From contig WGLX01000015.1 in assembly GCA_016125355.1 (NCBI GenBank), positions 83,044 to 147,043 on the forward strand: 64,000 nt of DNA, in the 5' to 3' direction. The notes beneath the pieces are model-generated. The model saw only the letters and a list, made by a program, of their open reading frames with translations, searched no databases and had not been told where the DNA came from. Position 1 is the stretch's first letter. Each line of letters starts with the position of its first letter. The position numbers and the translations under genes were made by a program. The DNA is from Actinomycetales bacterium (GTDB lineage: Bacteria > Actinomycetota > Actinomycetes > S36-B12). This document shows, in pieces, positions 47,371 through 62,288 of the stretch.

Positions 47371-47568
47371 TCAGCCGTTCGGCCGCAGCACCGACACTGG
47401 CACCCCGCCGATGCCCCAGTCATCGGTGCTCACCTCGTAGATGGCCACGCGGATCCGCTCAGGGTCGCCGCCGAGTGCCTCGGCGGTGGCATCCGTCAGG
47501 CCCTTGATGAGGGCGTGCTTCTGCTCGACGGTGCGGCCTTCCATCATCGTGATCTGGATGAACGGCAT
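47371..47568 (-). CDS. 4-Oxalocrotonate tautomerase
   Basis: 65 residues including Met; after removal Pro-1 is the catalytic base. It has PFIQITMMEGRTVEQKHALIKGLTDATAEALG with the active-site arginine downstream in DPERIRVAIYEV. It isomerises 2-hydroxymuconate to 2-oxo-3-hexenedioate in the dehydrogenative branch of the catechol meta pathway. It lies 12 bases after the decarboxylase gene in the same operon. Confidence 0.92.
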   Translation of the reverse strand: MPFIQITMMEGRTVEQKHALIKGLTDATAEALGGDPERIRVAIYEVSTDDWGIGGVPVSVLRPNG

Positions 47569-47580
47569 GCCTGATCCTCT

Positions 47581-48360
47581 CTAGCGGCAGGGGAGTTCGA
47601 CGGAGCCCAGACGATCGAAGCGCGCGACGACGGTGTCGCCGGGAGCCACCGCGACGGCCTCGGTGAGCGCTCCGGCCATGACGATCTGCCCCGCCTTCAT
47701 CCCCTGGCCACGCTCTGCCATTCGGCGGATCATCCAGGCGACGCTGGCTGCGGGATGCCCCAGCACGGCGGCGCCGGCGGCGGTGGCCACCAGCTCGCCG
47801 TTCTTCTCGAAGGCGCAGCCCACGAGCCGGAGGTCGATGCCGCGCGGATCCGTGCCCTGCCCGCCGAACACGAAGCCTGCACAGGAGGAGTTGTCGGCGA
47901 TGACGTCGCTGCCCGTGAATTTGTACCCGGCGAACCGCGAGTCGAGAACGTCGATGGCCGGGAAGACCAGCTCGGTGGCGGCCAGCACGTGGGCGGCCAG
48001 CACCTGCGGACCGGCGAGGTCCTCGCCGAGGAGGAAGGCGATCTCCGGTTCGCAGCGTGGCTGGATGTAGTCGCTGCAGACCAGCGTCTGTCCGGTGTCG
48101 AGCTGCATGTCGTCGGTCAGCCAGCCGTAGAGCGGCTCGGAGACGTTCATCTGCTTCTGCTTAGCGACGCTGGTGAGCCCCAGCTTGGCGCCGATGATCC
48201 GTGCGCCGCCCTCGACCCGGGCGTTGACGACGGCATCCTGCACCTCGTAGGCGGTCGCGGGATCGAGGTCGGGGTAGTCGTCGGTGAGCGGGTGGACGGC
48301 GGTTCGCGTGCGCGCCGCCTCGATCAGGGTGCGGGCGATCTGGTCCTTCGGCAATGACAC
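47581..48360 (-). CDS. 4-Oxalocrotonate decarboxylase / oxopentenoate hydratase family (DmpH-like)
   Basis: 259 residues of the FAH-related hydratase/decarboxylase family: IGAKLGLTSVAKQKQMNVSEPLYGW, RCEPEIAFLLGEDLAGP and the acidic metal site with EIAFLL. SDVIADNSSCAGFVFG and VMAGALTEAVAVAPGDTV are typical. Its pairing with a tautomerase and a second homologue (50344-51147) suggests this one is the decarboxylase, which makes 2-oxopent-4-enoate. It lies two bases after the aldolase gene on the same transcript. Confidence 0.85.
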   Translation of the reverse strand: MSLPKDQIARTLIEAARTRTAVHPLTDDYPDLDPATAYEVQDAVVNARVEGGARIIGAKLGLTSVAKQKQMNVSEPLYGWLTDDMQLDTGQTLVCSDYIQPRCEPEIAFLLGEDLAGPQVLAAHVLAATELVFPAIDVLDSRFAGYKFTGSDVIADNSSCAGFVFGGQGTDPRGIDLRLVGCAFEKNGELVATAAGAAVLGHPAASVAWMIRRMAERGQGMKAGQIVMAGALTEAVAVAPGDTVVARFDRLGSVELPCR

Positions 48361-48362
48361 GG

Positions 48363-49412
48363 TCAGGCCTCCCCGCCGGTCGCCTCGGCCTCGGCATGCT
48401 TGCGGGCGAGTTCGAGGGCGACGTCGATGATCATGTCCTCCTGGCCGCCGACCATCTGGCGTCGGCCGAGTTCGAAGAGGATGTCGGCCTGGGAGACGCC
48501 GTACCGCTCAGCGGCGCGCTCGGCGTGCAGGAGGAAGGATCCGTAGACGCCGGCGTAGCCCAGGATCAGGCCGGCGCGGTCGATGACCTGCGCGCGGGGC
48601 ATGATCGGCCGGACGACCTCCTCGGCGAGGTCCATCAGGGCGAGGGGGTCGACGCCGGTCTCGATGCCGTACTTGCTGGACACGGCAGCGAGGATCTCGG
48701 TGGGGCAGTTGCCCGCTCCTGCGCCGAGGCCGGCGCTGGTGCCGTCGAGGTTCTTGGCGCCGTTCTCGTAGGCGGCGATCGAGTTGGCGACCGCCATGGC
48801 GAGGTTGTTGTGGGCGTGCACGCCGAGGGGCACCTCGAGGGCCTGCACGAGCGCGTCGACCCGGACCTTCATGTCCTCCGTCGTCATGGCGCCGGCGGAG
48901 TCCGCGATGTAGATCGTGTCGGCGCCGTAGGACTGCATCTTCAGGGCCTCCTCGACCAGGCCCTCGGGGGAGTTCATGTGGGCCATCATGAGGAAGCCGA
49001 TGGCCTCCAGGCCGAGGGACTTCGCGACCTTGATGTGCTGCTCGGAGATGTCCGCCTCGGTGCAGTGCGTCGCGATGCGGGCGACCTTGACGCCCATCTC
49101 GTTGATCTCGCGGAGGTCGTCCGCCAGCCCGATGCCGGGCAGCAGCAGGCAGGCGATCTTCGCGTTGGTGGTGACCTCGCAGGCCTTCGCGATCAGCTCC
49201 TTCTCGGGCACGGCGGAGAAGCCGTAGTTGAAGCTGGAGCCGCCGATGCCGTCGCCGTGGGCGATCTCGATGACGGGCACGCCGGCCCGGTCGAGTCCGG
49301 TGACGATCTGGATCACGTCGTCCATCCGGTACTGGTGGCTGATCGCGTGCGAGCCGTCGCGCAGGGTCGAGTCGATCAGGCGGTAGTCGGCTTTCACGGC
49401 TGTGGTGGTCAC
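48363..49412 (-). CDS. dmpG: 4-Hydroxy-2-oxovalerate aldolase
   Basis: 349 residues. A divalent-metal TIM-barrel aldolase that splits 4-hydroxy-2-oxovalerate into pyruvate and acetaldehyde. It has [17 protein letters not shown] at the start, [31 protein letters not shown] and the [13 protein letters not shown] metal motif. The C-terminal region binds the dehydrogenase for acetaldehyde channelling. Its start overlaps the dehydrogenase stop by four bases, fitting the obligate complex. Confidence 0.95.
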
Positions 49413-50338
49413 TTGCTCGCTCCCTCGTTCTGGGCGGCCTTGTGGCCGGCGATCGCCTCGCCGACGCGCTGGGCGGCGGCCGTCATGATGTCCAGGTTCC
49501 CGGCGTACGGCGGGAGGTAGTCGCCGGCGCCCTCGACCTCGAGCAGCACCACGGCGCGGTGCGGCACGAGGCCGCCCGGGGTCAGGTAGGGACCCTCCTC
49601 GATCACCGGCTGGTTCTTCAGCCGGTAGCCCGGCACGTACTCCTGCACCGACTTCTCCATCGCGTAGATGGACTCGATCACCGCATCGTGGTCCGTGCCC
49701 TCCGGCAGCCCGCCGAAGACCGTGTTGCGCATCATGATCGGCGGCTCGGCCGGATTGAGGATGATGATCGCCTTGCTGTTCTCCGCGCCCCCGATCTCCC
49801 GCAGCGCGGTCGAGGTGGTCTTGGTGAACTCATCGATGTTCTGCCGCGTGCCCGGCCCGGCCGACTTCGACGCCACCGTCGAGACCATCTCCGCATACGG
49901 CAGGTTCTCCACGGCACGGCGGATCGCATAGACCATCGGCGTCGTCGCCTGCCCGCCGCAGGTGACCATGTTGATGTTGGGCGCATCGAGATGCTCGGTG
50001 AGGTTCACCGCCGCGATCACCTTCGGGCCGATAGCCGCGGGCGTGAGGTCCACCGCGATGATGCCGGCATCCTGATAGGCCTGCGCCTGCGCCTTGTGGA
50101 CGTAGGCGCTCGTCGCGTCGAAGATCATGTCCAGCTCGTCGGCATGGCTCAGGATCCAGTCCGGACCCTCATGCGTGCCCTCGATGCCCATCCGGCGCGC
50201 CCGCGCCAGCCCGTCCGAGGCCGGGTCGATGCCCACCAGCGCCACCAGGTCGAGCGGGCCGTCGAGCTCGCGTGCCTTCAGCAGCTTGATCATCAGGTCG
50301 GTCCCGATGTTCCCGGAACCCAGAATCGCGCAGCGCAT
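49409..50338 (-). CDS. dmpF: Acetaldehyde dehydrogenase (acylating)
   Basis: 309 residues from ATG 50338. It oxidises acetaldehyde with NAD and CoA to acetyl-CoA. [19 protein letters not shown] is the nucleotide fold, [17 protein letters not shown] holds the catalytic cysteine, and [20 protein letters not shown] is conserved. It forms a channelling complex with the adjacent aldolase. Its stop overlaps the aldolase start (ATGA). Confidence 0.95.
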
Positions 50339-50343
50339 CGCCC

Positions 50344-51147
50344 CTACTCTCCCTCGCGTGCCATACGGATCGTGATCGGGCCCAGCCGGTCGAACTCGGC
50401 CCGGAAGACATCGCCCGGAGCGACCGGGACCATCGCGTGCAGCGCACCTGTCATGATCACGCTGCCCGCCGGCAGGGTCACGCCCATGGGTGCGAGGGTG
50501 TTGGCGAGCCAGGCGACGGCGGCGATCGGATCGCCCAGGGCAGCGGCACCGGCACCCGTCGCGACGACCTCGCCGTTCTTCGTGAACACCATGCCCAGCA
50601 AGCGCGGGTCGAACCCGTCGACCGGCACGACCAGCGAGCTCAGCGCGATCGCCCCGTTGCTCGCCAGGTCGGCGACCGTGTCGGCGAGCTTGATCCGCCA
50701 GTCCGCGATCCGCGAGTCCACGATCTCCAGGGCGGCGACCAGGCCCGCCGTGGCGTCGAGCGCCTGCGCCGGCGTGCAGTCCGGGCCGCTCAGGTCCTTG
50801 CCCAGGATCACGCCGATCTCGCCCTCCATCCTCGGGGCGATGAAGCGGTCGACCGGCAGCTCGGCGCCGTCGCGGTAGACCGTGGACGCGAACACCGGCC
50901 CGAAGTCGGGGGAGTCCACCCCCAGCAGCCTCTGCATCGGCGTCGAGGTCAGCCCCAGCTTGTAGCCGATGATCGACTCCCCGTCGTCGAGGAGGTGCTG
51001 GACCAGGTGCTGCTGGATCGCATACCCATCCGGCATGCCGAGATCCGGCAGCGCATCCGTGAACGGCGCGATCGGGGCACGACTCCGCCGCGCCTCGTAC
51101 AGCGCAGCCGCGAACTCGCGTGCCTGCTCGTCGGTGACGATCGTCAT
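50344..51147 (-). CDS. 2-Oxopent-4-enoate hydratase
   Basis: 267 residues from ATG 51147, preceded by GGAGG. It adds water to 2-oxopent-4-enoate to give 4-hydroxy-2-oxovalerate. It has [42 protein letters not shown] with the metal-binding glutamates, and [17 protein letters not shown]. It is paralogous to the 47581-48360 product. Its position just before the dehydrogenase and aldolase genes, and the order hydratase-dehydrogenase-aldolase, support the hydratase assignment. Its start overlaps the IclR stop. Confidence 0.88.
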
Positions 51148-51956
51148 GCCCCGGTCCTCCCACTGGTCGTGTCTCGGTACCCGAGCCGGCGGCTGACCGC
51201 CAGCCCCGCCTCGATGGTCGGTCGTGCGAGTCTCCGGAGCGACTCCGGCGTCAGGCGCTGGAGGGGCCCGGCGACGGAGATGGCCGCGATGACCTCGCCG
51301 TAGCCGTTGCGAATCGGGGCCGCCACCGATGCCACTCCGATCTCCACCTCGTTCAGGTTCTCGGCCCATCCGCGGGCACGGACGACCTCGAGCTCACGGC
51401 GCAATCTGGGAATGGACGTGATCGTGAACTCGGTCTTCGCAGTCAACACCCAACCATCGAACAGGGGCTCAAGCTGTTCCGGTGGCTGGAACGCGAGCAG
51501 CACCTTGCCCGTGCTGGTGCAGTACGCGTCGTTCCGGTGGCCGATGCGACCGAAGATGCGCAAGGCCTGGGGGCTGTCCCGGCGCTCGACATAGACGACC
51601 TCGCGGCTGTCGAGGACGGCGACCTGGACGGTCTCGCGGGTGGCGGCTGCGAGCTGGTCGATCACCGGGACGCAGGCATGGTGGAGATCGGTGTGCATCG
51701 CCACGGAGGCCCCGAGCTCGTACATGGCCAGGCCCAGCCGGTAGGCGCCGGTGTGCGGATCCTGCTCGAGGAGCCGCTCCTCGGCCAACGTGGCCAGCAG
51801 TCGATGCGCGGTGCTCTTGCCGATGCCGAGGCGTCGCGACAGCTCGGTGACCCCGAGCTCGCGATTGCCCCGGGAGAACTCCTTCAGCAGGCGCGCGGCA
51901 TTGCGCACGCTGCTGAGTGTCGAATGCGCGCGGGGCGCCGACTCCGCGTCCGACAT
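51144..51956 (-). CDS. IclR-family transcriptional regulator
   Basis: 270 residues from ATG 51956 (GTG 51959 also possible). The N-terminal winged helix has [24 protein letters not shown] and the C-terminal IclR effector domain has [37 protein letters not shown] and [25 protein letters not shown]. IclR proteins often control aromatic catabolic operons. Lying inside the minus-arm operon, it would regulate itself and the divergent dioxygenase genes. Two 19-bp boxes in the intergenic region are its likely sites. Confidence 0.93.
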
Positions 51957-52636
51957 CACGAGCCCTCCCGCAGGCGGTCGAGGACGGCGCGGCGCACCTG
52001 GTCCGAGCCCGCATCAGCGTCGTCGCGGAAGGCGCCGGAATCGCCGAGGAGCTCGCGGGCGAGCGCGGTCACCGCACGCGGCAGGCCCGCCACCTCAGCC
52101 CCCTGCATCTGGTCCACGAGGTCACGGTCGTCCGCAAGTGCGCGGATCGATGCGTAGTCACGGCTGGCCGCCGCATGGGAATGGGCCAGTCCCGTCCCCG
52201 CGTGCTGGGCGTGGTGCGGCGTCAGGCCGCCACCCGGTGGGACGCTCATGTGGTAGACGACCGTGCGCACCCCCAGGACGCCGCGGACGTCCTCGGGGCG
52301 GGGCCCGGCCGTCTCGTCGACCCGGTCCAGTGCGGGTACGAGCAGGGGGTCGAAGAAGCGCAGCCGCCAGTGGAGGGGCCCCATCTCGTCGACGATCTCG
52401 ACCTCGTGGCCGGTCGGTGCCGCGAACGGGTCCGCGGTCGCGAGCACGTGCAGGTACCGGGTGCCGATCGCGGCGACCGTGAGGCGGTCGGTCGTCAGCA
52501 GGGGCAGTCGGCCTCGGTCACCGGGGGGCAGCGCATCGGCGACCTCGAGGTACGCCTGGTGGACCGCGCGGACGTAACCGGTCAGCGCCGCGCGCATCGC
52601 CTCGGGGCCGCGGCCCGGGTTCGGTATCTCCGTCAT
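51956..52636 (-). CDS. Unknown protein, first gene of the minus catabolic arm
   Basis: 226 residues. Soluble, no signal peptide or membrane helix. Conspicuous parts are MGPLHWRLRFFDPLLVPALDRVDETAG and VVYHMSVPPGGGLTPHHAQHAGTGLAHSH, a histidine-rich segment near 140-165 that could bind metal. I do not recognise a family. Its stop overlaps the IclR start (TGATG), so it is translationally coupled to the regulator. This suggests a role in sensing or in an early step of the pathway. Confidence 0.75.
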   Translation of the reverse strand: MTEIPNPGRGPEAMRAALTGYVRAVHQAYLEVADALPPGDRGRLPLLTTDRLTVAAIGTRYLHVLATADPFAAPTGHEVEIVDEMGPLHWRLRFFDPLLVPALDRVDETAGPRPEDVRGVLGVRTVVYHMSVPPGGGLTPHHAQHAGTGLAHSHAAASRDYASIRALADDRDLVDQMQGAEVAGLPRAVTALARELLGDSGAFRDDADAGSDQVRRAVLDRLREGS

Positions 52637-52812: not shown

Positions 52813-53721
52813 ATGGGCATTCTCCGTCTCGGCCATGTGGACATCACGGTCACCGATCTGGACCTGGCGACGGCCTACTACACCGAGGTCATCGGCCTCA
52901 TGGAGACGGAGCGCGACGAGGACTCGGTCTACCTCAAGTGCTGGGACGAGCCGAACCACCACTCGCTACGGCTGCGCTACGCGCCTCGGGTGGGGTTCGA
53001 CCAGATGTCGTTCAAGGTCGAGCACGAGTCCGACCTGGGCGACTTCGAGAACGCCATCCAGCGGTGGGGCTACCCGGTGCAGCGCGTCTCGAAGGGCGAG
53101 TCCGTCGGACAGGGCGAGTCGATCAGGTTCGAGACGCCGTCCGGCCAGACGATGGAGCTGGTCCACGACATGGAGATGGTCGGCCGTGCCACCGCGCCGA
53201 TCAACCCGTCGCCGTACGTGGAGGGGCTCAAGGGCATCGCGCCGCCCCGGCTGGACCACCTGCTGATCACCGCCGAGGAGGTGGGTGACTCGGCGCAGTT
53301 CTACATGGACGTGTTCGGCTTCCGACTCACCGAGCAGCTGCTCGACGGCGCAGGCCACCAGGCCGCGGTGTGGCTGGAGACCTCGGGCCGCGTGCACGAC
53401 ATCGCGATCGTGACCGGGCAGAACGGCGGCCTGCACCACTTCGCGTGGTGGCTCGACGACTGGGACCACGTGCGCCGGTCGGCGGACATCCTCGCCTACA
53501 ACGGCATCCAGCTCGACGTCGGTCCCACGCGCCACGGCATCACCCGTGGCAACACGATCTACTTCTTCGATCCGCTCGGCACCCGGAACGAGGTCTTCAC
53601 CGGCGGCTACCGACCGGACCCGGACTTCCCGACCATCACCTGGACCGAGGACCACATCGGCCGGGCCGTCTTCTACTACGAGGGTGAGTTGAACACGCGA
53701 TTCATGACGGTGCACACATGA
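52813..53721 (+). CDS. Catechol 2,3-dioxygenase, copy 1
   Basis: 302 residues from ATG 52813, preceded by GAGGAG. An extradiol dioxygenase of the two-domain VOC type that opens catechol to 2-hydroxymuconate semialdehyde with Fe(II) and O2. The Fe ligands are His in PRLDHLLI, His in GLHHFAWWLDDW and Glu in TRNEVFTGGY. The second-sphere residues of XylE are also present: His in VHDIAIVTG, His in TRHGITRG and Tyr in TIYFFDP. The stop overlaps the start of a second, similar dioxygenase gene. Confidence 0.92.
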   Translation: MGILRLGHVDITVTDLDLATAYYTEVIGLMETERDEDSVYLKCWDEPNHHSLRLRYAPRVGFDQMSFKVEHESDLGDFENAIQRWGYPVQRVSKGESVGQGESIRFETPSGQTMELVHDMEMVGRATAPINPSPYVEGLKGIAPPRLDHLLITAEEVGDSAQFYMDVFGFRLTEQLLDGAGHQAAVWLETSGRVHDIAIVTGQNGGLHHFAWWLDDWDHVRRSADILAYNGIQLDVGPTRHGITRGNTIYFFDPLGTRNEVFTGGYRPDPDFPTITWTEDHIGRAVFYYEGELNTRFMTVHT

Positions 53722-54629
53722 GCATCCTGAGGCTGTCGCATGTCGAGGTCCGCGTACCCGATCTCGAGCTCGCCACCGCGTACTACACCGAGGTCGTCGG
53801 GATGTACGAGACCGCGCGCGAGCCCGATCGGGTCTACCTGAAGTGCTGGGACGAGCAGCAGCACCATTCCCTCATCCTGACCTTCTCGCCCACCTACGGC
53901 TTGAACCACATGGGCTGGAAGGTCTCGGAGCGGGATGACCTCGATCGCTATGCGAGCCGGCTGGCGGACGCCGGGGTCGAGGTGCACCGGTTCGGGCCGG
54001 GCGAGATCGGCCCCGGCCACGGGGAGGCCATCCGCTTCGCCATCCCGAGCGGGCACGTGATGGAGCTCGTCTACGGGATGGAGCAGGTCGGCAACCTGCT
54101 GCCCAAGGTCAACCCGCCGCCGAAGCCGCTCGGTCTCGTGGGCTTCGCTCCGCCCCGGCTCGACCACGTGTTCCTCACCTGCGAGGACGTCGGCGCGAAC
54201 ACCGCGTTCCTCATCGACCTCCTCGACTTCCACCTGACGGAGCAGGTCGTCGGCGACGACGGATTCCAGCTGGCGACGTGGCTGGAGCGGTCGCATCACA
54301 GCCACGACATCGCCCTCGTCACCGGGCAGGATCGCGGCCTGCACCACTTCGCCTGGTGGGTGGATGACTGGAATGCCATCCGCGATGCCGCCGACGTGCT
54401 CGCCTACCACGGCGTCCCCATCGAGACGAACCCCACGCGCCATGGGGCCACCCGTGGCCAGTGCGTCTACTTCTTCGACCCGGCCGGCAACCGCAATGAG
54501 GCCTTCTCCGGGGGCTACTGGGTGGATCCGGACGAGCCCGCGGTCACCTGGACCGAGGCCGAGATGGGCCGGGCGATCTTCTACTACGACGGCGTCGTGA
54601 ACCAGCGGTTCCTGACGGTGCACAGCTGA
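53718..54629 (+). CDS. Catechol 2,3-dioxygenase, copy 2
   Basis: 303 residues, ATGA-coupled to copy 1 and similar along its whole length. The Fe ligands are present (PRLDHVFL, GLHHFAWWVDDW, NRNEAFSGGY), as are the active-site His in SHDIALVTG and TRHGATRG and Tyr in CVYFFDP. Both copies therefore look active. The N-terminal domains differ more than the catalytic ones, so the copies may prefer different catechols, such as plain and alkyl-substituted, or could form a mixed oligomer. They arose by tandem duplication that is not recent. Confidence 0.9.
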   Translation: MSILRLSHVEVRVPDLELATAYYTEVVGMYETAREPDRVYLKCWDEQQHHSLILTFSPTYGLNHMGWKVSERDDLDRYASRLADAGVEVHRFGPGEIGPGHGEAIRFAIPSGHVMELVYGMEQVGNLLPKVNPPPKPLGLVGFAPPRLDHVFLTCEDVGANTAFLIDLLDFHLTEQVVGDDGFQLATWLERSHHSHDIALVTGQDRGLHHFAWWVDDWNAIRDAADVLAYHGVPIETNPTRHGATRGQCVYFFDPAGNRNEAFSGGYWVDPDEPAVTWTEAEMGRAIFYYDGVVNQRFLTVHS

Positions 54630-54639
54630 GGGGCGGACA

Positions 54640-55764
54640 GTGACGGCATCGGACATCAAGGAGACCGGCCCGGCCTCGTTGCCGCGCACGGAGCGCAATG
54701 ACGCGCCCGCGTACCTGCAGCGCTACCTCGCACGCGAGAACCGCGGCGGCAAACCGCATGAGGTGGAGGAGCGCGAGGGGGAGGGGCCGCTGTACCTGCG
54801 GCGCTTCCGCGACCGTCGCAGCGGCGCCAACCCGCTCGAGGCCCCCGTGCCCGAGTGGGAGGGTCAGGACCTCGGCGTCACCCAGGCCCGCGCGCGCATC
54901 ACCAAGACCAAGGAGATCGTCCCCGAGTCGGCCGAGGCCGCCGGTCCCCGGACGGTCACGCAGGTCCACATCATCCGTCACGGTGAGACACAGGGGTACT
55001 CCACCGAGAGCGGGCTGACTCCTCTCGGGTCCTGGCAGGGGCATCGTCGTGGCTTCGACATCAGCAAGGGCATCCGGGAGGGCGAGCGTGTGCGGATCGT
55101 CTGCGCGGACACGAATCGGGCCCGCCAGACCGCCGAGCAGATCCGGAAGGGCCTGCTGGACGGACTGACGATGTGGGGTCGCACCGCGGAGATCTCCGAG
55201 GTCGACGGGATGGCGGAGTTCCGCAACTTCCAGGTCTGGACTCCCGAGGGCCTGCGCGACGTCACGCAGGCCTTCCGCCTGTACCAGAAGGAGATGGAGA
55301 AGTACGAGCGCGTCGCTCTCGGCGACCGCCCCCTCTGGCTGGTGGAGGTGGACCGCTTCTGGCGCACGCAGCAGGGCGGGGGAGACCCGATCACCTACTG
55401 GACGCAGATCCCGATGCTCTGCTTCGAGCCGCCGTCCGCGACGGTCCGGCGCTTCTGGGCCGGGATCCAGCGCGTCAAGGCGGAGACGCCCGGGGATCGC
55501 ATCATCGTCGCCACCCACTCCGGGCCGATCCGCGTCTTCGCGATGGCCGCCCACGGGTATGACCCCGGCGAGCCCTACAACACGGAGGAGGTCATCGTGA
55601 AGCTCCTCGAGGGGGACAACGGGGCCTTCCTCGCCTACCGCAACCGGGTCTCCGAGGTGCAGGTGCCCCACCTGGAGGAGATGCCGGACTGGTGGGAGGG
55701 CCTCTCCGGCCGGGCCCTGCCGACCTCGCTTCGCACCGATCTCGACGAAGGAGCTCGAGCGTGA
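54640..55764 (+). CDS. Histidine phosphatase with N-terminal extension
   Basis: 374 residues from GTG 54640. The phosphatase fold starts near residue 107 with VHIIRHGETQGYSTESGLTPLG, where R113-H114-G115 is the catalytic loop. The second arginine is in ADTNRARQTAEQI, an acidic residue in VDGMAEFRNF, and the second histidine in IIVATHSGPIRVF. All catalytic positions are kept. Residues 1-105 are an unusual basic/acidic segment with YLQRYLARENRGGK. Between dioxygenase and dikinase genes it is a good candidate for an aryl-phosphate phosphatase, as the phosphohydrolase of the corynebacterial cresol pathway. Its stop overlaps the next start (GTGA). Confidence 0.82.
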   Translation: MTASDIKETGPASLPRTERNDAPAYLQRYLARENRGGKPHEVEEREGEGPLYLRRFRDRRSGANPLEAPVPEWEGQDLGVTQARARITKTKEIVPESAEAAGPRTVTQVHIIRHGETQGYSTESGLTPLGSWQGHRRGFDISKGIREGERVRIVCADTNRARQTAEQIRKGLLDGLTMWGRTAEISEVDGMAEFRNFQVWTPEGLRDVTQAFRLYQKEMEKYERVALGDRPLWLVEVDRFWRTQQGGGDPITYWTQIPMLCFEPPSATVRRFWAGIQRVKAETPGDRIIVATHSGPIRVFAMAAHGYDPGEPYNTEEVIVKLLEGDNGAFLAYRNRVSEVQVPHLEEMPDWWEGLSGRALPTSLRTDLDEGARA

Positions 55765-56846
55765 ACATCGTCATGTGGTTCGAGAGCTACTGGGAGGGCA
55801 TGAAGGCCGAGGTCGGCGGCAAGGCCGCGAGCCTCGGTGAGATGACGGGCGCCGGCCTGCCCGTGCCACCGGGGTTCGCCCTCACCACGGGCGCGTACCG
55901 CAAGTCGCGCGACGCGGCCGATCTCGACGCCACTCTCGCGCGCCTGCTGCACGGGCTCGACACCGACGACACCGCGATGGTGACCGATCGATGCGGTCGC
56001 ATCCGGGCGCACATCGAGCAGATGCCGATGGACCCGGAGGTGGAGTCACGACTGCGGCATGCCTATCAGGAGCTGTGCCGTCGCTGCGATACGCCCGATG
56101 TCCCCGTCGCGGTCCGGTCGTCGGCGACGAGCGAGGACTCGCCGGACGCGTCCTTCGCAGGCGAGCACGACACCTACCTGTGGGTCCGCGGGGCGGATGC
56201 CGTCGTCGATGCCGTCCGCCGCTGCTGGGCGTCACTCTTCACCGATCGCGCCACCTGCTACCGCGTGGAGATGGGCTACGACCACCGCACTGTCGAGATG
56301 AGCGTCGTCGTCCAGAAGATGGTCCGCCCCATCGCGGCCGGTGTGGCGTTCACCTTGAACCCGTCCGACGGCGACCGGTCCACCGTGGCCATCGACTCCG
56401 CCTGGGGCTTCGGGGAGGGCGTGGTCTCGGGCGAGGTCACCCCGGACAACTTCCTCGTCGACAAGGTCCTCTACGAGATCACCAAGCGGCGCGTCGCCAC
56501 CAAGGAGGTCGAGTTCCGGCTGACCGACCACGACACCGTCGAGAAGGTGGCCCTCGAGGGGGAGCGGGCGACCGCGCCCAGCCTCACGGACGCGCAGCTG
56601 AAGGCCGTGGCCCGGCTCGCGCGCACCGCCGAGCGGCACTACAGGTGCCCGCAGGACATCGAGTGGGCGGTGGACGCCGACCTGCCCGAGACGGAGAACA
56701 TCGTGCTCCTGCAGTCACGTCCGGAGACGGTCTGGAGCAGGAAGGCGGCCGAGGCAGCAGCAGCTCGGGCGGCCACCGGCAACGTCGACCTCATGCAGAG
56801 CATCGTGTCGACTCTCATGAACCCGCTGCACAGCCGCAACAAGTAG
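55761..56846 (+). CDS. Dikinase subunit, ATP-grasp domain (phenylphosphate synthase PpsB-like)
   Basis: 361 residues from GTG 55761, with AAGGAG upstream. It corresponds to the N-terminal ATP-binding part of PEP synthase/PPDK enzymes only: GGKAASLGEMTGAGLPVPPGFALTT, VAVRSSATSEDSPDASFAGEHDT, VVVQKMVRPIAAGVAFTLNP and DIEWAVDADL with LLQSRPETVW. The phosphohistidine domain is encoded by the next gene. The size (about 40 kDa) matches the small subunit of phenylphosphate synthase and the CreH type of the C. glutamicum cresol pathway. It should transfer phosphate from ATP to the partner histidine. Confidence 0.87.
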   Translation: MNIVMWFESYWEGMKAEVGGKAASLGEMTGAGLPVPPGFALTTGAYRKSRDAADLDATLARLLHGLDTDDTAMVTDRCGRIRAHIEQMPMDPEVESRLRHAYQELCRRCDTPDVPVAVRSSATSEDSPDASFAGEHDTYLWVRGADAVVDAVRRCWASLFTDRATCYRVEMGYDHRTVEMSVVVQKMVRPIAAGVAFTLNPSDGDRSTVAIDSAWGFGEGVVSGEVTPDNFLVDKVLYEITKRRVATKEVEFRLTDHDTVEKVALEGERATAPSLTDAQLKAVARLARTAERHYRCPQDIEWAVDADLPETENIVLLQSRPETVWSRKAAEAAAARAATGNVDLMQSIVSTLMNPLHSRNK

Positions 56847-56891
56847 TCGATCATCCACCGCAGTCAGAGCAGTCAACCAGAGGGAGTTCGC

Positions 56892-58700
56892 ATGGCCGAT
56901 CGGTTCCCCAGCCCCTTCGAGATCGAGACGCCCGAGGGCGCTGAAGGCTGGCAGGAGATGTACGTGTACTCGTCGCTCTTCAGTGAGGGGCGACGGGAGT
57001 TCGACGACAACACCTTCTGGTTCCAGGACGGGGTCCACTGGCCCAAGGTCCTGACGCCGTGGGACGCGACCTTCTTCGAGTTCGGCATCGCCTCGCTGTC
57101 GCAGTACAACACCCGTCACCTGCAGGTGCCGCCCGCGAACGGCATCGCCTTCCGGATCCTCAACGGCTACGGCTACCTGACCCCCATGCCTGCTGACCCG
57201 GCGACGATTGAGGAGCGGGTCGCCAACTTCCTGGACCGCGCCGGCTTCTACTTCATGAACTGGAACGACCTGTACGACAAGTGGATGCTCAAGATGCGGG
57301 ACCTCGTCGCGGAACTGGAGGCGGTCTCCTTCGACCCCCTGCCCGACATCGAGGACGCCGACGAGGTCGTGAAGTCCGGGGCGGGCCTCGGCTCGGGCTA
57401 CCGGATCCAGGAGAGCTACCGGAACCTGGTCAACCTGGGCCTGAAGCTGTGGAACTACCACTTCGAGTTCCTCAACCTCGGCTACGCCGCGTACCTCGAC
57501 TTCTTCGGCTTCTGCAAGGAGGCGTGGCCGAACATCCCGGACCTCGCGATCGCCAAGATGGTCGCGGGGGTCGAGGTCGACCTGTTCCGCCCGGACGAGG
57601 AGCTCAAGCGCCTCGCCCGGATGGCCGTCGAAACCGGCATCGCGGACGCCTTCTCGGCCGGTGACGTCGAGGCGACGTGCCAGGTGCTCAAGAGCTCGGA
57701 CGCCGGTAACGCATGGATCTCGTCCTTCCAGGAGTCGGCGGAGCCGTGGTTCAACTTCTCCACGGGTTCGGGCTTCTACCACTCCGACAAGATCTGGATC
57801 GAGAACGTCGAGGTCCCCTTCGAGTTCATCGGCAACTACATCGGGATGCTCCAGAAGGGCGAGGACCTTGCCCGGCCGATGGAGGCCATCCGCGCCGAGC
57901 GCGACCGGATCGTGAACGAGTACGCCGACCTGCTTCCGTCGGATGCCGACCGGGAGGCCTTCCAGGGCAAGCTCGGCCTGGCGCGCGTGGTCTTCCCGTA
58001 CGTGGAGAACCACAACTTCTACGTCGAGCACTGGAGCCACTCGGTCATCTGGCGCAAGATGCGCCAGCTGGGGGAGCTGTTCGTGAAGGAGGGGTTCTTC
58101 ACGGAGGCCAACGACATCTTCTACCTCAAGCGCACCGAGGTCGAGGATGCGCTGTGGGACTACTACGTGTCGTGGGCAACGCCGGAGCAGGCTGCAGGCC
58201 CGGGCTACTGGCCGCCGATCGTGAAGCGGCGTCGCGAGATCTGCGCCGCGCTGTCGGCCTGGAAGCCGACGCCTGCACTCGGCGTGCCGCCGGAGGTCAT
58301 CACCGAGCCGTTCACCGTGATGCTGTGGGGCATCACGTCCGAGAGCACCAAGGCATGGCTCGGTGGCGGTGCCGGAGATGAGGGCCAGTTGAAGGGCATG
58401 GCGGCGTCTCCGGGCGTCGTCGAGGGCGTGGCCCGCGTGATCTTCAACCCGGACCAGATCAGCGAGGTCCAGGAGGGCGAGATCCTCGTCGCCCCGCTGA
58501 CCGCACCCTCCTGGGCGCCGATCTTCGGCAAGATCCAGGCGACGGTCACCGACACGGGCGGCATGATGAGCCACGCGGCCATCGTGTGTCGCGAGTACGG
58601 ACTGCCGGCCGTGACCGGCACCGGTTTCGCGACCGCCACCATCCAGACCGGCGACCGGATCCGCGTCGACGGCACCAACGGCGTCGTGACCAAGCTCTAG
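56892..58700 (+). CDS. Dikinase subunit, phosphohistidine domain (phenylphosphate synthase PpsA-like)
   Basis: 602 residues, with GAGGGAG upstream. The last 120 residues are a swivelling phosphohistidine domain: GMAASPGVVEGVARVI, then GGMMSHAAIVCREYGLPAV, with H561 as the phospho-carrier. Residues 1-450 are a helical acceptor-binding region rich in aromatic residues (FYFMNWNDLYDKW, NYHFEFLNLGYAAYLDFFGF). The C-terminal pyruvate-binding barrel of PEP synthase is absent. The length near 600 and split layout match the large subunit of phenylphosphate synthase and CreI. I infer it phosphorylates a phenol hydroxyl, and the acceptor is unknown. Confidence 0.85.
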   Translation: MADRFPSPFEIETPEGAEGWQEMYVYSSLFSEGRREFDDNTFWFQDGVHWPKVLTPWDATFFEFGIASLSQYNTRHLQVPPANGIAFRILNGYGYLTPMPADPATIEERVANFLDRAGFYFMNWNDLYDKWMLKMRDLVAELEAVSFDPLPDIEDADEVVKSGAGLGSGYRIQESYRNLVNLGLKLWNYHFEFLNLGYAAYLDFFGFCKEAWPNIPDLAIAKMVAGVEVDLFRPDEELKRLARMAVETGIADAFSAGDVEATCQVLKSSDAGNAWISSFQESAEPWFNFSTGSGFYHSDKIWIENVEVPFEFIGNYIGMLQKGEDLARPMEAIRAERDRIVNEYADLLPSDADREAFQGKLGLARVVFPYVENHNFYVEHWSHSVIWRKMRQLGELFVKEGFFTEANDIFYLKRTEVEDALWDYYVSWATPEQAAGPGYWPPIVKRRREICAALSAWKPTPALGVPPEVITEPFTVMLWGITSESTKAWLGGGAGDEGQLKGMAASPGVVEGVARVIFNPDQISEVQEGEILVAPLTAPSWAPIFGKIQATVTDTGGMMSHAAIVCREYGLPAVTGTGFATATIQTGDRIRVDGTNGVVTKL

Positions 58701-58745
58701 GAACGGAACTACCATGAACGACGAGGACCCCCGGAAGGACGCACC

Positions 58746-60005
58746 ATGCTGACGGTCGAGCAGAACGAGGAACTCACCCAGGTCGGGCCCGGAAAGCCCA
58801 TGGGCGAGCTGCTGCGCCGGTACTGGTACCCCATCGCCTTCGAGCAGGACTTCGACGAGGTGCCCAGCAAGACCGTGCGGCTGCTCGGCGAGAACTGGAC
58901 GCTGTTCAAGACCCCGAAGAGCGGTCGCTACGGCATCGTCGCCGAGGCGTGCCCCCACCGCAGCGCCTCGCTCACCTACGGTGTCGTCCACGAGGACGGC
59001 ATCCGCTGCGGCTACCACGGCTGGAAGTGGGACTTCGACGGCACCTGCGTGGAGCAGCCCGCCGAGGCCGACAACCAGAACTTCCGGGACCGCGTGAAGC
59101 AGAAGGCCGGCAAGGCCAAGACGATGGGCGGGATGGTCTGGGTCTACGTGGGCCCAGACCCCGCTCCCGAGCTGCCGCGGTTCGACGTCTTCGTCATGGA
59201 CGGCATCAAGGACGTCGGCTACACCACTCTTCCGTGCAACTGGCTGCAGATCATGGAGAACTCGGTCGACCCGCACCACGTCGAGTGGCTGCACGGCTAC
59301 TACTTCGAGTTCCTCGGTCAGATGCAGGGCTTCGATGCTCCCAAGTCCTTCCAGAAGAAGCACCTGAAGACGGGCTTCGAGGAGATGGAGTGGGGCATCC
59401 TCAAGCGTCGAGTCCAAGAGGGCGGCACGGAGGAGAACGACGACTGGAAGATCGGTCACCCACTGGTCTTCCCCTTCTACATGCGCGTGGGCGGCGCCGG
59501 CATCGACCAGATGCAGATCCGGGTGCCCATCGATGACACCACCACCTGGAAGCTCTTCTACTCCAACCACGCACCCGAGGGTGGGCAGTGGGAGCCCCAG
59601 GAGCGCCCCGTGGTCTACGAGTACCAGTGGCGCGACGAGGAGGGCCGCTTCATCACCGACTACATCGAGGGCCAGGACATCATGGCGTGGGTGTCGCAGG
59701 GTCCGATCACCGATCGCACCCAGGAGCACCTCGGCCGGTCCGATGCCGGCGTCGCCATGCTGCGGAAGATGTTCAAGGAGAACATGAAGAAGGTGCAGGA
59801 CGGCGAGGATCCGATCGGCACGATCCGCGAGCCGCACGAGATCATCCCGCTGCCCTGCGAGCGCGACAAGTTCGGGGCGGAGCGCGAATTCGCGGAGGCC
59901 TTCATCACGATGGGGTCGATGCGCTACAGCCCCAACAAGCAGGGTCTCCTGGACCTGCACGCCGATGCGTGGGCGCGTCGGGAAGGTGCGGCGGCGAACG
60001 CCTGA
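58746..60005 (+). CDS. Rieske non-heme iron oxygenase (LigX/phthalate-type)
   Basis: 419 residues, with GGAAGGA upstream of ATG 58746. The Rieske cluster ligands are C69, H71, C88 and H91 (CPHRSASLTYG, CGYHGWKWDF). The mononuclear iron site is ENSVDPHHVEWLHG plus Asp in EGQDIMAWVSQGPITDR. The N-terminus LLRRYWYPIA and the C-terminal GPITDRTQEHLGRSD match the one-component-type alpha subunits that include phthalate 4,5-dioxygenase and LigXa O-demethylase. It should hydroxylate or O-demethylate an aromatic substrate. Being downstream of the dikinase, an aryl phosphate is a plausible substrate. Confidence 0.9.
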   Translation: MLTVEQNEELTQVGPGKPMGELLRRYWYPIAFEQDFDEVPSKTVRLLGENWTLFKTPKSGRYGIVAEACPHRSASLTYGVVHEDGIRCGYHGWKWDFDGTCVEQPAEADNQNFRDRVKQKAGKAKTMGGMVWVYVGPDPAPELPRFDVFVMDGIKDVGYTTLPCNWLQIMENSVDPHHVEWLHGYYFEFLGQMQGFDAPKSFQKKHLKTGFEEMEWGILKRRVQEGGTEENDDWKIGHPLVFPFYMRVGGAGIDQMQIRVPIDDTTTWKLFYSNHAPEGGQWEPQERPVVYEYQWRDEEGRFITDYIEGQDIMAWVSQGPITDRTQEHLGRSDAGVAMLRKMFKENMKKVQDGEDPIGTIREPHEIIPLPCERDKFGAEREFAEAFITMGSMRYSPNKQGLLDLHADAWARREGAAANA

Positions 60006-60007
60006 TC

Positions 60008-60259
60008 ATGATGCTGCCCCCTGATCCGCACCGGCTGCCTCCCCGCGAGGCCTGGTTCGCGCGAGACGCCGAACGCCACCTCCTCGACCGGCCGCGGTTC
60101 TGCCCGATGTGCGGCGAGGGTCTCGATGCGGATGGCGGCATCAGCACCGAGTACTGGGCCGCGGATGCGCGGTACTTCATGACCTGGTGCGGAGCATGCG
60201 GCTGGTTCGGCGAGGGCGTGCGCTTCGACATGGTCACGATCACCGAGGTGGAGCACTAG
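60008..60259 (+). CDS. Small zinc-ribbon-like protein
   Basis: 83 residues from ATG 60008 (ATG 60011 possible), two bases after the Rieske oxygenase stop. RFCPMCGEGLD and WCGACGWFGEG give two CxxC pairs about 35 residues apart, a zinc-ribbon or rubredoxin-like metal site. No family is recognised. Its tight linkage suggests it helps assembly, electron delivery or stability of the oxygenase. It is the last gene of the plus catabolic arm. Confidence 0.75.
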   Translation: MMLPPDPHRLPPREAWFARDAERHLLDRPRFCPMCGEGLDADGGISTEYWAADARYFMTWCGACGWFGEGVRFDMVTITEVEH

Positions 60260-60262
60260 CGG

Positions 60263-60925
60263 ATGGTGGCAGCCCCCAAGACCGCCCTGATCTTCGACTT
60301 CGGCGGTCCGGTCCTCCTCACGCCCTTCGAGCTGCGGCATGTCGGCGAGCGCGACCTCGGCCTGCCGGCCGGCACCTTCGCGTGGACCGGTCCGTTCGCT
60401 CCCGAGCTCGATGCGGACTGGCAGGTCTTCCAGTCCGGGGGCATGAACGAGCGGGAGTACTGGGCCTATCGCGCCCGCGAGTTCGCCGACCTGACCGGCG
60501 AGGAACCGACGATGAAGGCGTTGTGCGGCCACCTCTACTCCGGCGCGGAGGAGGAGCTCGTGCGCCCTGGGGCGCTGGCCCTGCTGCGTGACGCGAAGGC
60601 TGCGGGGATCGCCGTGGGGGCGCTCACCAACGATCTGACCTCGTTCCACGATCAGGCCTGGCTCGACCGGATGAGCGTCCTGACCGAGTTCGACGTGCTG
60701 GTGGACGGGCGCACGGAAGGCGTCTACAAGCCCGATCCGCGGATGTACGAGATCATCCTCGAGCGCATGGGCATCGAGGCCGAGGACGCCGTCTTCCTGG
60801 ACGACCAGCCGGTCAACCTGGCCGGCGCGGACGTGGTGGGGCTCACACCTGTGCACCTGGACCCCGTTGACCCGGCGCCAGGGTTTAGGTTGTGTCGCGA
60901 ACTGTTAGGACTTCCACAGGAGTAG
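60263..60925 (+). CDS. HAD-superfamily hydrolase
   Basis: 220 residues. Motif I is LIFDFGGPVLL with the nucleophile Asp, but Gly where the general acid Asp often stands, as in the DFGG subgroup. Motif II is ALTNDL, motif III VYKPDPRMY and motif IV VFLDDQPVNL. The cap is the small alpha-helical type. It resembles the phosphatase domain of epoxide hydrolase-type HADs. It may act on small phosphate esters. A part in aryl-phosphate hydrolysis is possible but the histidine phosphatase is better placed. Confidence 0.85.
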   Translation: MVAAPKTALIFDFGGPVLLTPFELRHVGERDLGLPAGTFAWTGPFAPELDADWQVFQSGGMNEREYWAYRAREFADLTGEEPTMKALCGHLYSGAEEELVRPGALALLRDAKAAGIAVGALTNDLTSFHDQAWLDRMSVLTEFDVLVDGRTEGVYKPDPRMYEIILERMGIEAEDAVFLDDQPVNLAGADVVGLTPVHLDPVDPAPGFRLCRELLGLPQE

Positions 60926-60929
60926 CCAC

Positions 60930-62288
60930 ATGCGCGTCGCGGTCGTCGGTTCCGGTCCCTCAGGCGTCTACGCAGCCGACGCCCTCGTCTCCCAGGATGC
61001 GGTGCCGGTGGAGGTCGACATCATCGACCGCCTTCCGGTGCCGTTCGGCCTCGTGCGCTACGGCGTGGCACCCGATCACGTGAGCATCCGATCGGTCCGT
61101 GACACCCTCGATAAGGTCCTCGACAAGCCGGGCGTGCGCTTCCTCGGCAACGTGACGGTGGGCCAGCCCGAGGACGGCGGCGTCGTGTCCATGGCCGACC
61201 TGCACGCCTGCTACGACGCGGTCGTCCTGACCTACGGGGCCTCGCGCGACCGTCGGCTGGGCATTCCCGGCGAGGACCTCGACGGCAGCGTCGCGGCAAC
61301 CGACTTCGTGGCGTGGTACTGCGGGCACCCGGACGCGGACCGGGAGCTCTTCGAGCGCCTCGTCCCGACCGCCACCAGCGCCGTGGTTGTCGGCGTGGGC
61401 AACGTGGCGGTGGACGTGACCCGCGTCCTCGCCAAGACCGTCGGGGAGCTGGACCACACCGACATGCCGCAGCACGTCTTCGACACGCTCGCCCAGTCGC
61501 ACATCACCGATGTGTACCTCCTCGGGCGTCGTGGTCCGGCCCAGGCAGCCTGGACCACCAAGGAGCTGAAGGAGCTCGGGGAGCTCCTGGACGCCGAGGT
61601 CATCGTGCGGCCCGAGGACGTCGTCCTCGACGAGGGCAGCGCGGAGGTGGCCGCGTCGGACCGGGCCGTCGGCCGCAATGTCGCCGTCGTGCAGGAGTGG
61701 GCCGAGCGGGAGCCGCAGGGCAAGCCGCGCCGCATCCACGTGCGGTTCCTGTCGCGGCCCATCGAGATGCGCGGTGACGACCGCGTGCGGACCGTGGTCG
61801 TCGAGCGGACCCGCCTTACCTCGGACGGCAAGGCGGAGGGGACCGGCGAGACCGAGGAGATCGCGGCGGACCTTGTGGTGCGCTCCGTCGGCTACCGCGG
61901 CACGGCGCTGGACGGGGTGCCCTTCGACAGCGGGCGCAACGTGATCCCGCACACCGATGGCCGCGTGGAGCGGGACGGCGTGCAGGTTCCGGGGGAGTAC
62001 GTGGCCGGCTGGATCAAGCGTGGACCCACGGGCATCATCGGCACGAACAAGAAGGACGCCGTGCAGACCGTCACCTCGCTGCTTGCGGACGCGGAGGCGG
62101 GCCTGCTGCGAGCGCCGACGCAGCCGGGTGGGATCGACGCCTTGCTGGCGGAGCGCGGGGTGGCCGTCGTCAGCACGGCGGGGTGGCGGTCGATCAACGC
62201 CGCCGAGCAGGCCCTCGGCGCGACCCGGGGCCGGGACCGCACGACGATCCACGATCGGGTGGCCCTCCTCGACGCCGCGAACGGCTAG
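60930..62288 (+). CDS. fprA: Ferredoxin-NADP reductase (FprA-type)
   Basis: 452 residues, with AGGAG upstream of ATG 60930. An adrenodoxin-reductase-like flavoprotein that passes electrons between NADPH and ferredoxin. FAD motif VAVVGSGPSGVYAADAL, IDRLPVPFGLVRYGVAPDH, NADP motif VVVGVGNVAVDVTRVLA, and VAGWIKRGPTGIIGTNKKDA near the end. It may reduce the Rieske ferredoxin of the catabolic island or serve the general ferredoxin pool, including the pyruvate oxidoreductase. It starts four bases after the HAD gene and ends before a complex palindrome. Confidence 0.94.
   Translation: MRVAVVGSGPSGVYAADALVSQDAVPVEVDIIDRLPVPFGLVRYGVAPDHVSIRSVRDTLDKVLDKPGVRFLGNVTVGQPEDGGVVSMADLHACYDAVVLTYGASRDRRLGIPGEDLDGSVAATDFVAWYCGHPDADRELFERLVPTATSAVVVGVGNVAVDVTRVLAKTVGELDHTDMPQHVFDTLAQSHITDVYLLGRRGPAQAAWTTKELKELGELLDAEVIVRPEDVVLDEGSAEVAASDRAVGRNVAVVQEWAEREPQGKPRRIHVRFLSRPIEMRGDDRVRTVVVERTRLTSDGKAEGTGETEEIAADLVVRSVGYRGTALDGVPFDSGRNVIPHTDGRVERDGVQVPGEYVAGWIKRGPTGIIGTNKKDAVQTVTSLLADAEAGLLRAPTQPGGIDALLAERGVAVVSTAGWRSINAAEQALGATRGRDRTTIHDRVALLDAANG

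Follow-up and report, generated by a model that had tools for sequence, protein, structure and literature searches.

Why would a bacterium that opens catechol by meta cleavage keep an ATP-dependent dikinase, a histidine phosphatase and a Rieske oxygenase in line with its catechol dioxygenases? Could this indicate that a phenol is phosphorylated before it is oxygenated? Aerobic bacteria normally oxidise phenol directly, by flavin or diiron monooxygenases. The question is raised by a gene array in a stretch of 64,000 nucleotides from an Actinomycetales bacterium (G000:C2:83044-147043 in our numbering, from a genome of 3.34 Mb in 45 contigs), which we call the window. We consider it fairly probable that this array encodes an aerobic, phosphorylation-initiated route in which a simple phenol is converted to catechol by way of the Rieske oxygenase.

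In the proposed route, the dikinase (55761-58700) would use ATP to turn a phenol into an aryl phosphate through a phosphohistidine, H561, the product probably being phenylphosphate or a ring-substituted form of it. The Rieske oxygenase (58746-60005), whose relatives are phthalate-type dioxygenases acting on anionic aromatics, would use the phosphate as an anionic handle and place oxygen next to it. Phosphate could then leave spontaneously, after attack on the phosphate-bearing carbon and its neighbour, or the histidine phosphatase could act on a catechol monophosphate; the phosphatase would either finish the route or keep the phosphate ester in check. Two extradiol dioxygenases would cleave the catechol, and a tautomerase, a decarboxylase, a hydratase, an aldolase and an acylating aldehyde dehydrogenase would lead on to pyruvate and acetyl-CoA. 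The gene context is what points to the phosphate ester as the substrate of the Rieske enzyme and to catechol as its outcome.

A sequence-only reading of the window had named the gene families and described them as one co-directional array. Profile matches place all of them on the plus strand, where the array runs from 52813 to 62288 in the following order:

52813..53721, plus strand: catechol 2,3-dioxygenase (C23O) 1; TIGR03211 at 372 bits, cut-off passed; motifs RLDHL, HHFA and RNEVF.
53718..54629, plus strand: catechol 2,3-dioxygenase 2; TIGR03211 at 365 bits, cut-off passed; motifs kept.
54640..55764, plus strand: histidine phosphatase (branch 1), extended N-terminally by about 100 amino acids (aa); PF00300 (His_Phos_1); RHGE at 113, THSGP at 292.
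55761..56846, plus strand: ATP-grasp subunit of the dikinase (HpeI/CreI-like; 'kinI'); PF01326 (PPDK_N) at 376 bits.
56892..58700, plus strand: substrate-binding and swivel subunit of the dikinase (HpeH/CreH-like; 'kinH'); PF00391 (PEP-utilizers); NF006150, NF006151 and NF006153 past cut-off.
58746..60005, plus strand: Rieske oxygenase, phthalate 4,5-dioxygenase-like; PF00355 and PF19301 (LigXa_C).
60002..60259 (start maybe 60008), plus strand: small CxxC...CxxC protein, probable Rieske partner.
60263..60925, plus strand: HAD-family hydrolase, a possible second phosphatase; PF00702.
60930..62288, plus strand: ferredoxin-NADP reductase-like flavoprotein, a possible electron supply; PF07992.

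The two dioxygenases do belong to the array, but they lie just ahead of position 54640, where that reading had begun it, and the array does not end at 60005 but continues to 62288 with the small four-cysteine protein, the HAD hydrolase and the flavoprotein. To call the genes mostly overlapping, as had been done, is too strong: four-base overlaps occur at two junctions (C23O1/C23O2 and phosphatase/ATP-grasp), and the remaining three pairs of neighbours, as far as the Rieske gene, are separated by 10, 45 and 45 bases.

Do dikinase, oxygenase and phosphatase form one unit, as had been proposed? Comparative genomics argues that they do. A chance neighbourhood is excluded, because relatives and tens of further genomes show the identical gene order. 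The Rieske ortholog is present at 77-100% identity in 14 of 59 genomes searched (the window's own, which is counted, and 58 relatives), and on the contigs of the 13 relatives the order from C23O1 to the HAD gene is identical wherever the contig reaches. G040 and G056 have an extra MhpD-like gene ahead of the HAD gene; G017 has no flavoprotein reductase after it and no lower-pathway genes behind the IclR gene. A wider scan with the Rieske protein, one genome per species, gave 364 relatives, and our counts of loci rest on the best 80 (59-91% identity), from which loci with too-short flanks are left out gene by gene; for the swivel subunit this removes 7 of the 80, including L124. Of 73 readable loci, 72 have the swivel subunit ahead of the Rieske gene, which bears out the co-occurrence that had been suggested as a check. 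The swivel stop lies at most 400 bases from the Rieske start in 71 of the 73; at L104 the ATP-grasp subunit stands in between. The ATP-grasp subunit is found in 63 of 64 readable loci, the phosphatase in 60 of 62, the IclR regulator in 50 of 51, a 226-aa protein encoded divergently in 46 of 51 and the small four-cysteine protein in 70 of 77, with the HAD hydrolase (45/69) and the flavoprotein reductase (19/62) less constant. Two separate C23O genes precede the Rieske gene at 52 of the 53 loci where this could be read, a count made on separate genes since each C23O type, at a cross-identity of about 52-57%, finds the other. Both tandem copies in the window (52813-54629) are motif-intact and they differ from each other.

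The closest Rieske relatives are found in Candidatus Nanopelagicales and other metagenome-assembled genomes (MAGs) of Actinomycetota. The best 80 also include Nocardioides zhouii, litoris, speluncae, allogilvus, baculatus and psychrotolerans, Nostocoides sp. Soil756, and MAGs of Acidimicrobiia and Nitriliruptoraceae. The linkage holds in the opposite direction as well. An even sample of 396 genomes of the phylum contains 23 (the window's own counted) with a homolog of the swivel subunit at E<=1e-100, and all 10 homologs from other genomes with E<1e-280 (L184-L193) lie directly upstream of this Rieske gene, two of these loci running into a contig end. Weaker homologs (about 46-50% identical, or nearer to HpeH/PpsA references) occur in Hpe-like, molybdenum-hydroxylase, microcompartment or unassigned contexts, a survey that leaves out G108, G176, G194 and L203 (G196). 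Swivel and Rieske proteins diverge in parallel (r 0.83, 47 of the 80 loci), which says little because all operon gene pairs range from 0.65 to 0.87; correlated divergence was dropped as proof of a partnership, every operon pair correlating alike.

By every sequence feature examined, the dikinase is a member of the two-component phenolic dikinase group. PF01326 spans residues 16-336 of the 360-aa ATP-grasp subunit, which is thus a separate subunit as in the phenolic dikinases, and this protein matches PDB 9goj, which we take to be HpeI, with an E of 7e-78. The other subunit, of about 600 aa, has an N-terminal substrate part and a C-terminal swivel domain (527-597), the architecture of this group; NF006150 and NF006153 match it almost from end to end. 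H561, by homology the expected phosphohistidine of the swivel domain, lies in the motif TGGMMSHAA and is kept by all 12 aligned orthologs. Models of the phosphoenolpyruvate (PEP) synthase and pyruvate phosphate dikinase of central metabolism match the swivel subunit only in its C-terminal swivel part and were rejected, whereas PRK08296-type models match it over nearly its full length; a rifampicin-type phosphotransferase was rejected too, its model matching the ATP-grasp subunit and the C-terminal swivel part far under cut-off.

The swivel subunit is 53% identical to its Cre-type counterpart in Rhodococcus oxybenzonivorans and 46% identical to the one adjoining ppcBDAG in Azoarcus KH32C; for the ATP-grasp subunit both figures are 49%. 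In our tree of swivel subunits (39 hand-picked rows, midpoint-rooted; L126 left out for a stop in the chosen stretch), the Rieske-linked dikinases form a single clade (16 rows, support 98/94), with the CreH type as its sister (96/92). According to the HpeHI paper (PMC12167813, which names 9goj once), PpsAB phosphorylates phenol and CreHI 4-cresol, both components are required in PpsAB, CreHI and HpeHI, and HpeHI is inactive once its swivel histidine is replaced. From homology to these three enzymes we infer that the dikinase of the window makes an aryl phosphate.

Is the pairing of such a dikinase with a Rieske oxygenase restricted to one lineage? The Acidimicrobiia MAG KatS3mg011 carries, at L104, a dikinase from another group of the tree (91/94), set between the genes for the C23O, the phosphatase and the Rieske oxygenase. 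Its swivel subunit (50% identity) precedes the ATP-grasp subunit, the sole such order among 65 loci; the ATP-grasp gene itself is fragmented over several reading frames. A plasmid search gave 36 records with a swivel match, and the 10 covering at least 80% were looked at. Four of them are haloarchaeal (Haladaptatus, two Natribaculum and Natrinema), and each of them encodes, within about 7 kb, a Rieske oxygenase of the alpha/beta type together with a metallophosphoesterase and an aldehyde dehydrogenase (L183:1416-10948, L205:4033-11976, L206:4572-11960 and L204:3922-11976; L204 is unannotated and was read by similarity, and in Natrinema the annotation of the alpha gene reads SRPBCC-family protein). 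These dikinases are the outermost in the midpoint-rooted tree. Because different families fill the same three roles in haloarchaea, kinase, Rieske oxygenase and phosphatase appear to belong together. Judging by their dehydrogenases, the haloarchaeal clusters may oxidise side chains, perhaps in an archaeal aryl-phosphate route for cresol-like compounds.

What does the Rieske oxygenase do? It combines a Rieske domain with a LigXa_C-type catalytic domain and conserved ligand motifs, as the phthalate-dioxygenase-like group does, and its best PDB matches are 7fhr, 7fjl and 9ina, the best solved matches being of the phthalate 4,5-dioxygenase type. Residues C69/H71/C88/H91 and D175/H178/H183/D333, presumably the ligands of the Rieske cluster and of the mononuclear iron, are invariant in 13 of 13 sequences. 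With phthalate 4,5-dioxygenase (7fjl, 7fhr) it shares family, domain layout and a single oxygenase subunit. The three best relatives without a dikinase, all on plasmids (Peribacillus, 49%; two from Caballeronia, 47%), are at most 49% identical; their loci have a Gfo/Idh-type dehydrogenase nearby and no dikinase within 10 kb. Phthalate pathways use a Gfo/Idh-type dehydrogenase. Unlike these, the window-type clusters have none: a comparison with the Peribacillus protein turned up no homolog at any of the 80 loci, within flanks of varying length, and within the same flanks a short-chain dehydrogenase/reductase (SDR) lies near just one, the dikinase-free L120, on the opposite strand. The Rieske product is therefore probably not a stable cis-dihydrodiol.

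We tentatively consider that the protein may be a phenylphosphate 1,2-dioxygenase, phosphate being both handle and leaving group and catechol arising in one step. No dihydrodiol dehydrogenase would then be needed, and the phosphatase would only keep phenylphosphate in check; this would explain both the missing dehydrogenase at all 80 loci and two clusters without an adjoining phosphatase, L099 and L109. Such an enzyme would be the oxygen analogue of aniline dioxygenase.

Electrons may be supplied in more than one way. The four cysteines of the small protein are invariant in 14 of 14 sequences, and since a homolog (38%) also follows the Peribacillus Rieske gene, where there is no dikinase, the protein is probably a partner of the oxygenase; as a defined electron carrier it was dropped, the predicted model of its 85 aa being poor (pLDDT 64). 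In place of the flavoprotein, another type of reductase is found near 11 of the 80 loci, including those of Nocardioides and Nostocoides (in the latter at L081:12203-13171), with NAD-binding and C-terminal 2Fe-2S domains; in this the Nocardioides/Nostocoides-type clusters resemble the phthalate 4,5-dioxygenase family.

Could guaiacol, a cresol or some other methoxy- or alkylphenol be the substrate? Phosphorylation would then be followed by O-demethylation or side-chain hydroxylation by the Rieske enzyme, and the phosphatase would free catechol or methylcatechol. LigXa_C is a domain named after an O-demethylase, and the clade of the dikinase is sister to the cresol-type CreH; the retention of two different C23Os and the preference of HpeHI for cresol over phenol (PMC12167813) point in the same direction. 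We nevertheless regard this as unlikely. No C1-handling enzyme, alcohol dehydrogenase or P450 is among the identified genes of the window cluster, whereas the haloarchaeal and Cre-type clusters, which apparently oxidise side chains, carry alcohol and/or aldehyde dehydrogenases. The best solved matches of the Rieske protein are phthalate dioxygenases, and phthalate dioxygenases oxygenate the ring.

The Cre pathway for 4-cresol (Corynebacterium, Rhodococcus) is one of the nearest known systems; its details here come partly from PMC12167813 and PMC9618137 and partly from Rhodococcus annotation, by which we read two Rhodococcus plasmid clusters as Cre clusters. Both systems are aerobic and cluster a two-subunit dikinase with an IclR regulator, an oxygenase and a putative phosphohydrolase; that the window has a Cre-like layout with a Rieske oxygenase in place of the P450 agrees with the sister position of the two dikinase clades. 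Cre has a P450, an HD-domain protein, an SDR and an aldehyde dehydrogenase, whereas the window cluster has the Rieske oxygenase, a histidine phosphatase and catechol meta cleavage. A P450 lies within 6.5 kb at 1 of the 80 loci and is not found in the window cluster, and a Cre-type HD protein is found at none of the 80.

A second candidate substrate is aniline or an aminophenol. In the aniline dioxygenase system, aniline is first conjugated at the expense of ATP; a Rieske oxygenase then forms catechol, and a hydrolase holds down the level of the conjugate (PMC11335346, and also PMC7500099). By analogy, the dikinase could make a phosphoamidate at nitrogen, which the Rieske enzyme would turn into catechol as aniline dioxygenase does with gamma-glutamylanilide. 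The homologous two-component enzyme of Desulfatiglans anilini takes aniline, and also phenol, but phenylphosphoamidate decayed too fast for detection in the D. anilini assays (PMC7500099). The dikinase of the window groups with the O-kinase CreH, and no amine-handling gene is among the identified cluster genes; aniline thus seems a very unlikely substrate. The likeness to aniline dioxygenase would be one of logic, ATP conjugating a monosubstituted benzene so that a Rieske enzyme can yield catechol (PMC11335346). The means differ, a glutamine-synthetase-like ligase and a glutamyl amide there, a dikinase of another family and a phosphate here, and no such ligase is among the window-cluster genes.

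Where does the product go? Divergently from the array, on the minus strand between 47371 and 52636, lie a regulator and the 4-oxalocrotonate branch of catechol degradation. From the array outwards, the genes are:

51956..52636, minus strand: conserved 226-aa His-rich protein, divergent from the operon; no family match.
51144..51959 (start maybe 51908), minus strand: IclR-family regulator; IclR-type matches (BhcR, PcaR/PcaU) under cut-offs.
50344..51147, minus strand: DmpE-like 2-oxopent-4-enoate hydratase; best NCBIfam match TIGR03220 at 268 bits, under the cut-off of 409.
49409..50338, minus strand: acetaldehyde dehydrogenase (acylating); TIGR03215 at 415 bits, cut-off passed.
48363..49412, minus strand: 4-hydroxy-2-oxovalerate aldolase; TIGR03217 at 499 bits, cut-off passed.
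47581..48360, minus strand: DmpH-like 2-oxo-3-hexenedioate decarboxylase, MhpD family; best NCBIfam match TIGR03218 at 277 bits, under the cut-off of 350.
47371..47568, minus strand: 4-oxalocrotonate (2-hydroxymuconate) tautomerase family; TIGR00013 at 73 bits, cut-off of 56.9 passed.

With the C23Os, the window cluster thus holds tautomerase, decarboxylase, hydratase, aldolase and acylating acetaldehyde dehydrogenase of this branch, decarboxylase and hydratase by best matches below cut-off. This lower pathway is specific for catechol and supports catechol as the product, as the sequence-only reading had supposed in letting the array feed meta cleavage. In Nostocoides sp. Soil756, the whole route stands in one array together with the reductase and an aldehyde dehydrogenase, with lower pathway and tautomerase co-directional; the aldehyde dehydrogenase scores 489 bits to TIGR03216 (2-hydroxymuconic semialdehyde dehydrogenase), under cut-off. 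The 226-aa protein has a confident predicted model (pLDDT 92) that has no PDB match at E<=0.001, a second structure comparison giving a best Z of 4.2 over 72 residues; its sequence has no Pfam or NCBIfam match at E<=0.001.

Several observations weigh against a route from a simple phenol to catechol through dikinase and oxygenase. Among the genes of the window cluster, none could be identified as a 2-hydroxymuconic semialdehyde dehydrogenase, and no aldehyde dehydrogenase in the 15 cluster genomes, those of the window's own genome included, passes the cut-off of TIGR03216. The window's own genome has a second catechol cluster (L237:4988-13737, on G000:C20) with subunits of a Dmp-like multicomponent hydroxylase, a C23O, an IclR-like regulator and an aldehyde dehydrogenase. 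If phenol is the substrate, the array would therefore be redundant with this Dmp-like route, and phenol itself may not be the special substrate in this genome; of the 15 cluster genomes, three contain PF02332 and one contains PF07976, in a search that did not take in HpaBC-type hydroxylases. Phenol is also a poor substrate of HpeHI, which turns it over slowly and cresol faster (0.038 U/mg for phenol vs 0.74 for acetovanillone; PMC12167813), so a phenolic kinase need not mean phenol. Finally, there are exceptional clusters. G384, whose swivel fragment is one of the weaker homologs in the 396 genomes, has the C23Os, the phosphatase, the ATP-grasp gene and a broken swivel gene with no Rieske gene behind. 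L099 and L109 have dikinase and Rieske genes and no phosphatase adjoining them; at L099 a HAD protein lies nearby and a piece of a C23O at the edge, on the other strand. Conversely, L120 (8955-11272, from an Ilumatobacteraceae MAG) and L124 (2-1506, from an Acidimicrobiia MAG) have the phosphatase beside the Rieske gene with no dikinase between, and keep lower-pathway genes. The best swivel scores across these two genomes, whose completeness is not known, are 133 and 126 bits, vs 778-1050 in seven other genomes; five of their 17 swivel matches were aligned and show 28-32% identity, except along 110 residues of the swivel part, where the figure is 46%. Homologous clusters without a dikinase, which the sequence-only reading had said would speak against it, do exist, then, but are rare.

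Do these clusters indicate that two substrates meet at catechol? The Rieske enzyme would then act on an unphosphorylated acid, like its phthalate-type relatives, and dikinase and phosphatase would serve storage, detoxification or another route. L120 and L124, the dikinase-free Rieske relatives at 47-49% and the occurrence of related dikinases beside other oxidising enzymes are what such a split would produce. The near-complete linkage in both directions and the other dikinase-Rieske pairings argue the opposite, as does the dehydrogenase count: Gfo/Idh-type at none of the 80 loci, and the single SDR at L120 itself. We judge the split quite unlikely.

How far does the proposed phenol-to-catechol route depart from what is known? 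The Hpe pathway (HpeHI, a biotin carboxylase and a HAD phosphatase) shares the two-subunit dikinase, a step on the phosphate ester and subsequent dephosphorylation (PMC9618137). It differs in carboxylating rather than oxygenating, and its dikinase belongs to another clade; a biotin carboxylase homolog is found neither at the 80 loci nor among the window-cluster genes. PpsAB/Ppc also begins with ATP-dependent phosphorylation of phenol, followed there by anaerobic carboxylation, and a homolog of ppcA (phenylphosphate carboxylase) is likewise found at 0 of the 80 loci and not among the window-cluster genes. Because the defining second enzyme of each is missing, the array is not a Cre, Hpe or Pps pathway. 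Phosphorylation-initiated aromatic catabolism is already known; what would be new is the oxidising step. Among the matches listed in the open-licence PubMed Central literature (titles and beginnings of abstracts), none describes a phenol catabolism that joins a dikinase to a Rieske oxygenase.

If the proposal is right, phenolic dikinases have one more use, besides the anaerobic activation of aniline, ring carboxylation (Pps), side-chain carboxylation (Hpe) and oxidation by a P450 (Cre). A function would also be assigned to the set of PEP-synthase-like, Rieske and phosphatase genes in Nanopelagicales, Acidimicrobiia, Nitriliruptoraceae MAGs and Nocardioides, genes that look unrelated when taken singly. 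As the KM of HpeHI for its preferred phenols is submicromolar (PMC12167813), such a kinase could trap scarce phenols. Named strains of Nocardioides and Nostocoides carry the gene set, so the proposal is testable now.

Phenolic-type dikinases are also found in other company. Near two of them lie the FAD, 2Fe-2S and Mo subunits of molybdenum hydroxylases (L194:6661-17284, from an actinobacterium, and L179:7944-16462, on a plasmid of Thermomicrobium roseum). At further loci the swivel gene adjoins LigB alpha/beta genes, two bacterial microcompartment (BMC) shell proteins and EutN/CcmL (L196:4123-10677, L186:11187-16676, L226:5022-11374, L230, L175 and L228 with L197), in some with the ATP-grasp subunit too and, where the contig reaches, with a HAD hydrolase. 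These loci resemble the ARO microcompartment locus and are taken to be that locus. Homologs of the L196 shell protein at E<=1e-25 occur in 4 of the 396 genomes, all of which have this swivel type; the swivel gene lies beside the shell genes in three, and a contig break separates them in the fourth. The ATP-grasp gene stands beside the ARO-like swivel gene in G314, G384 and G061 and was not found there in G095 and G080. All four shell-bearing genomes also carry a Rieske-type cluster, degraded in G384, and at L186 the ARO-like locus begins about 0.5 kb past the end of the Rieske cluster. The upper pathway of the ARO microcompartment is an open question in the published account, in whose main text the words 'kinase', 'dikinase' and 'Rieske' occur 0 times. 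The dikinases beside it bear on this question, the enzyme at these loci being a candidate for the upper pathway of that compartment.

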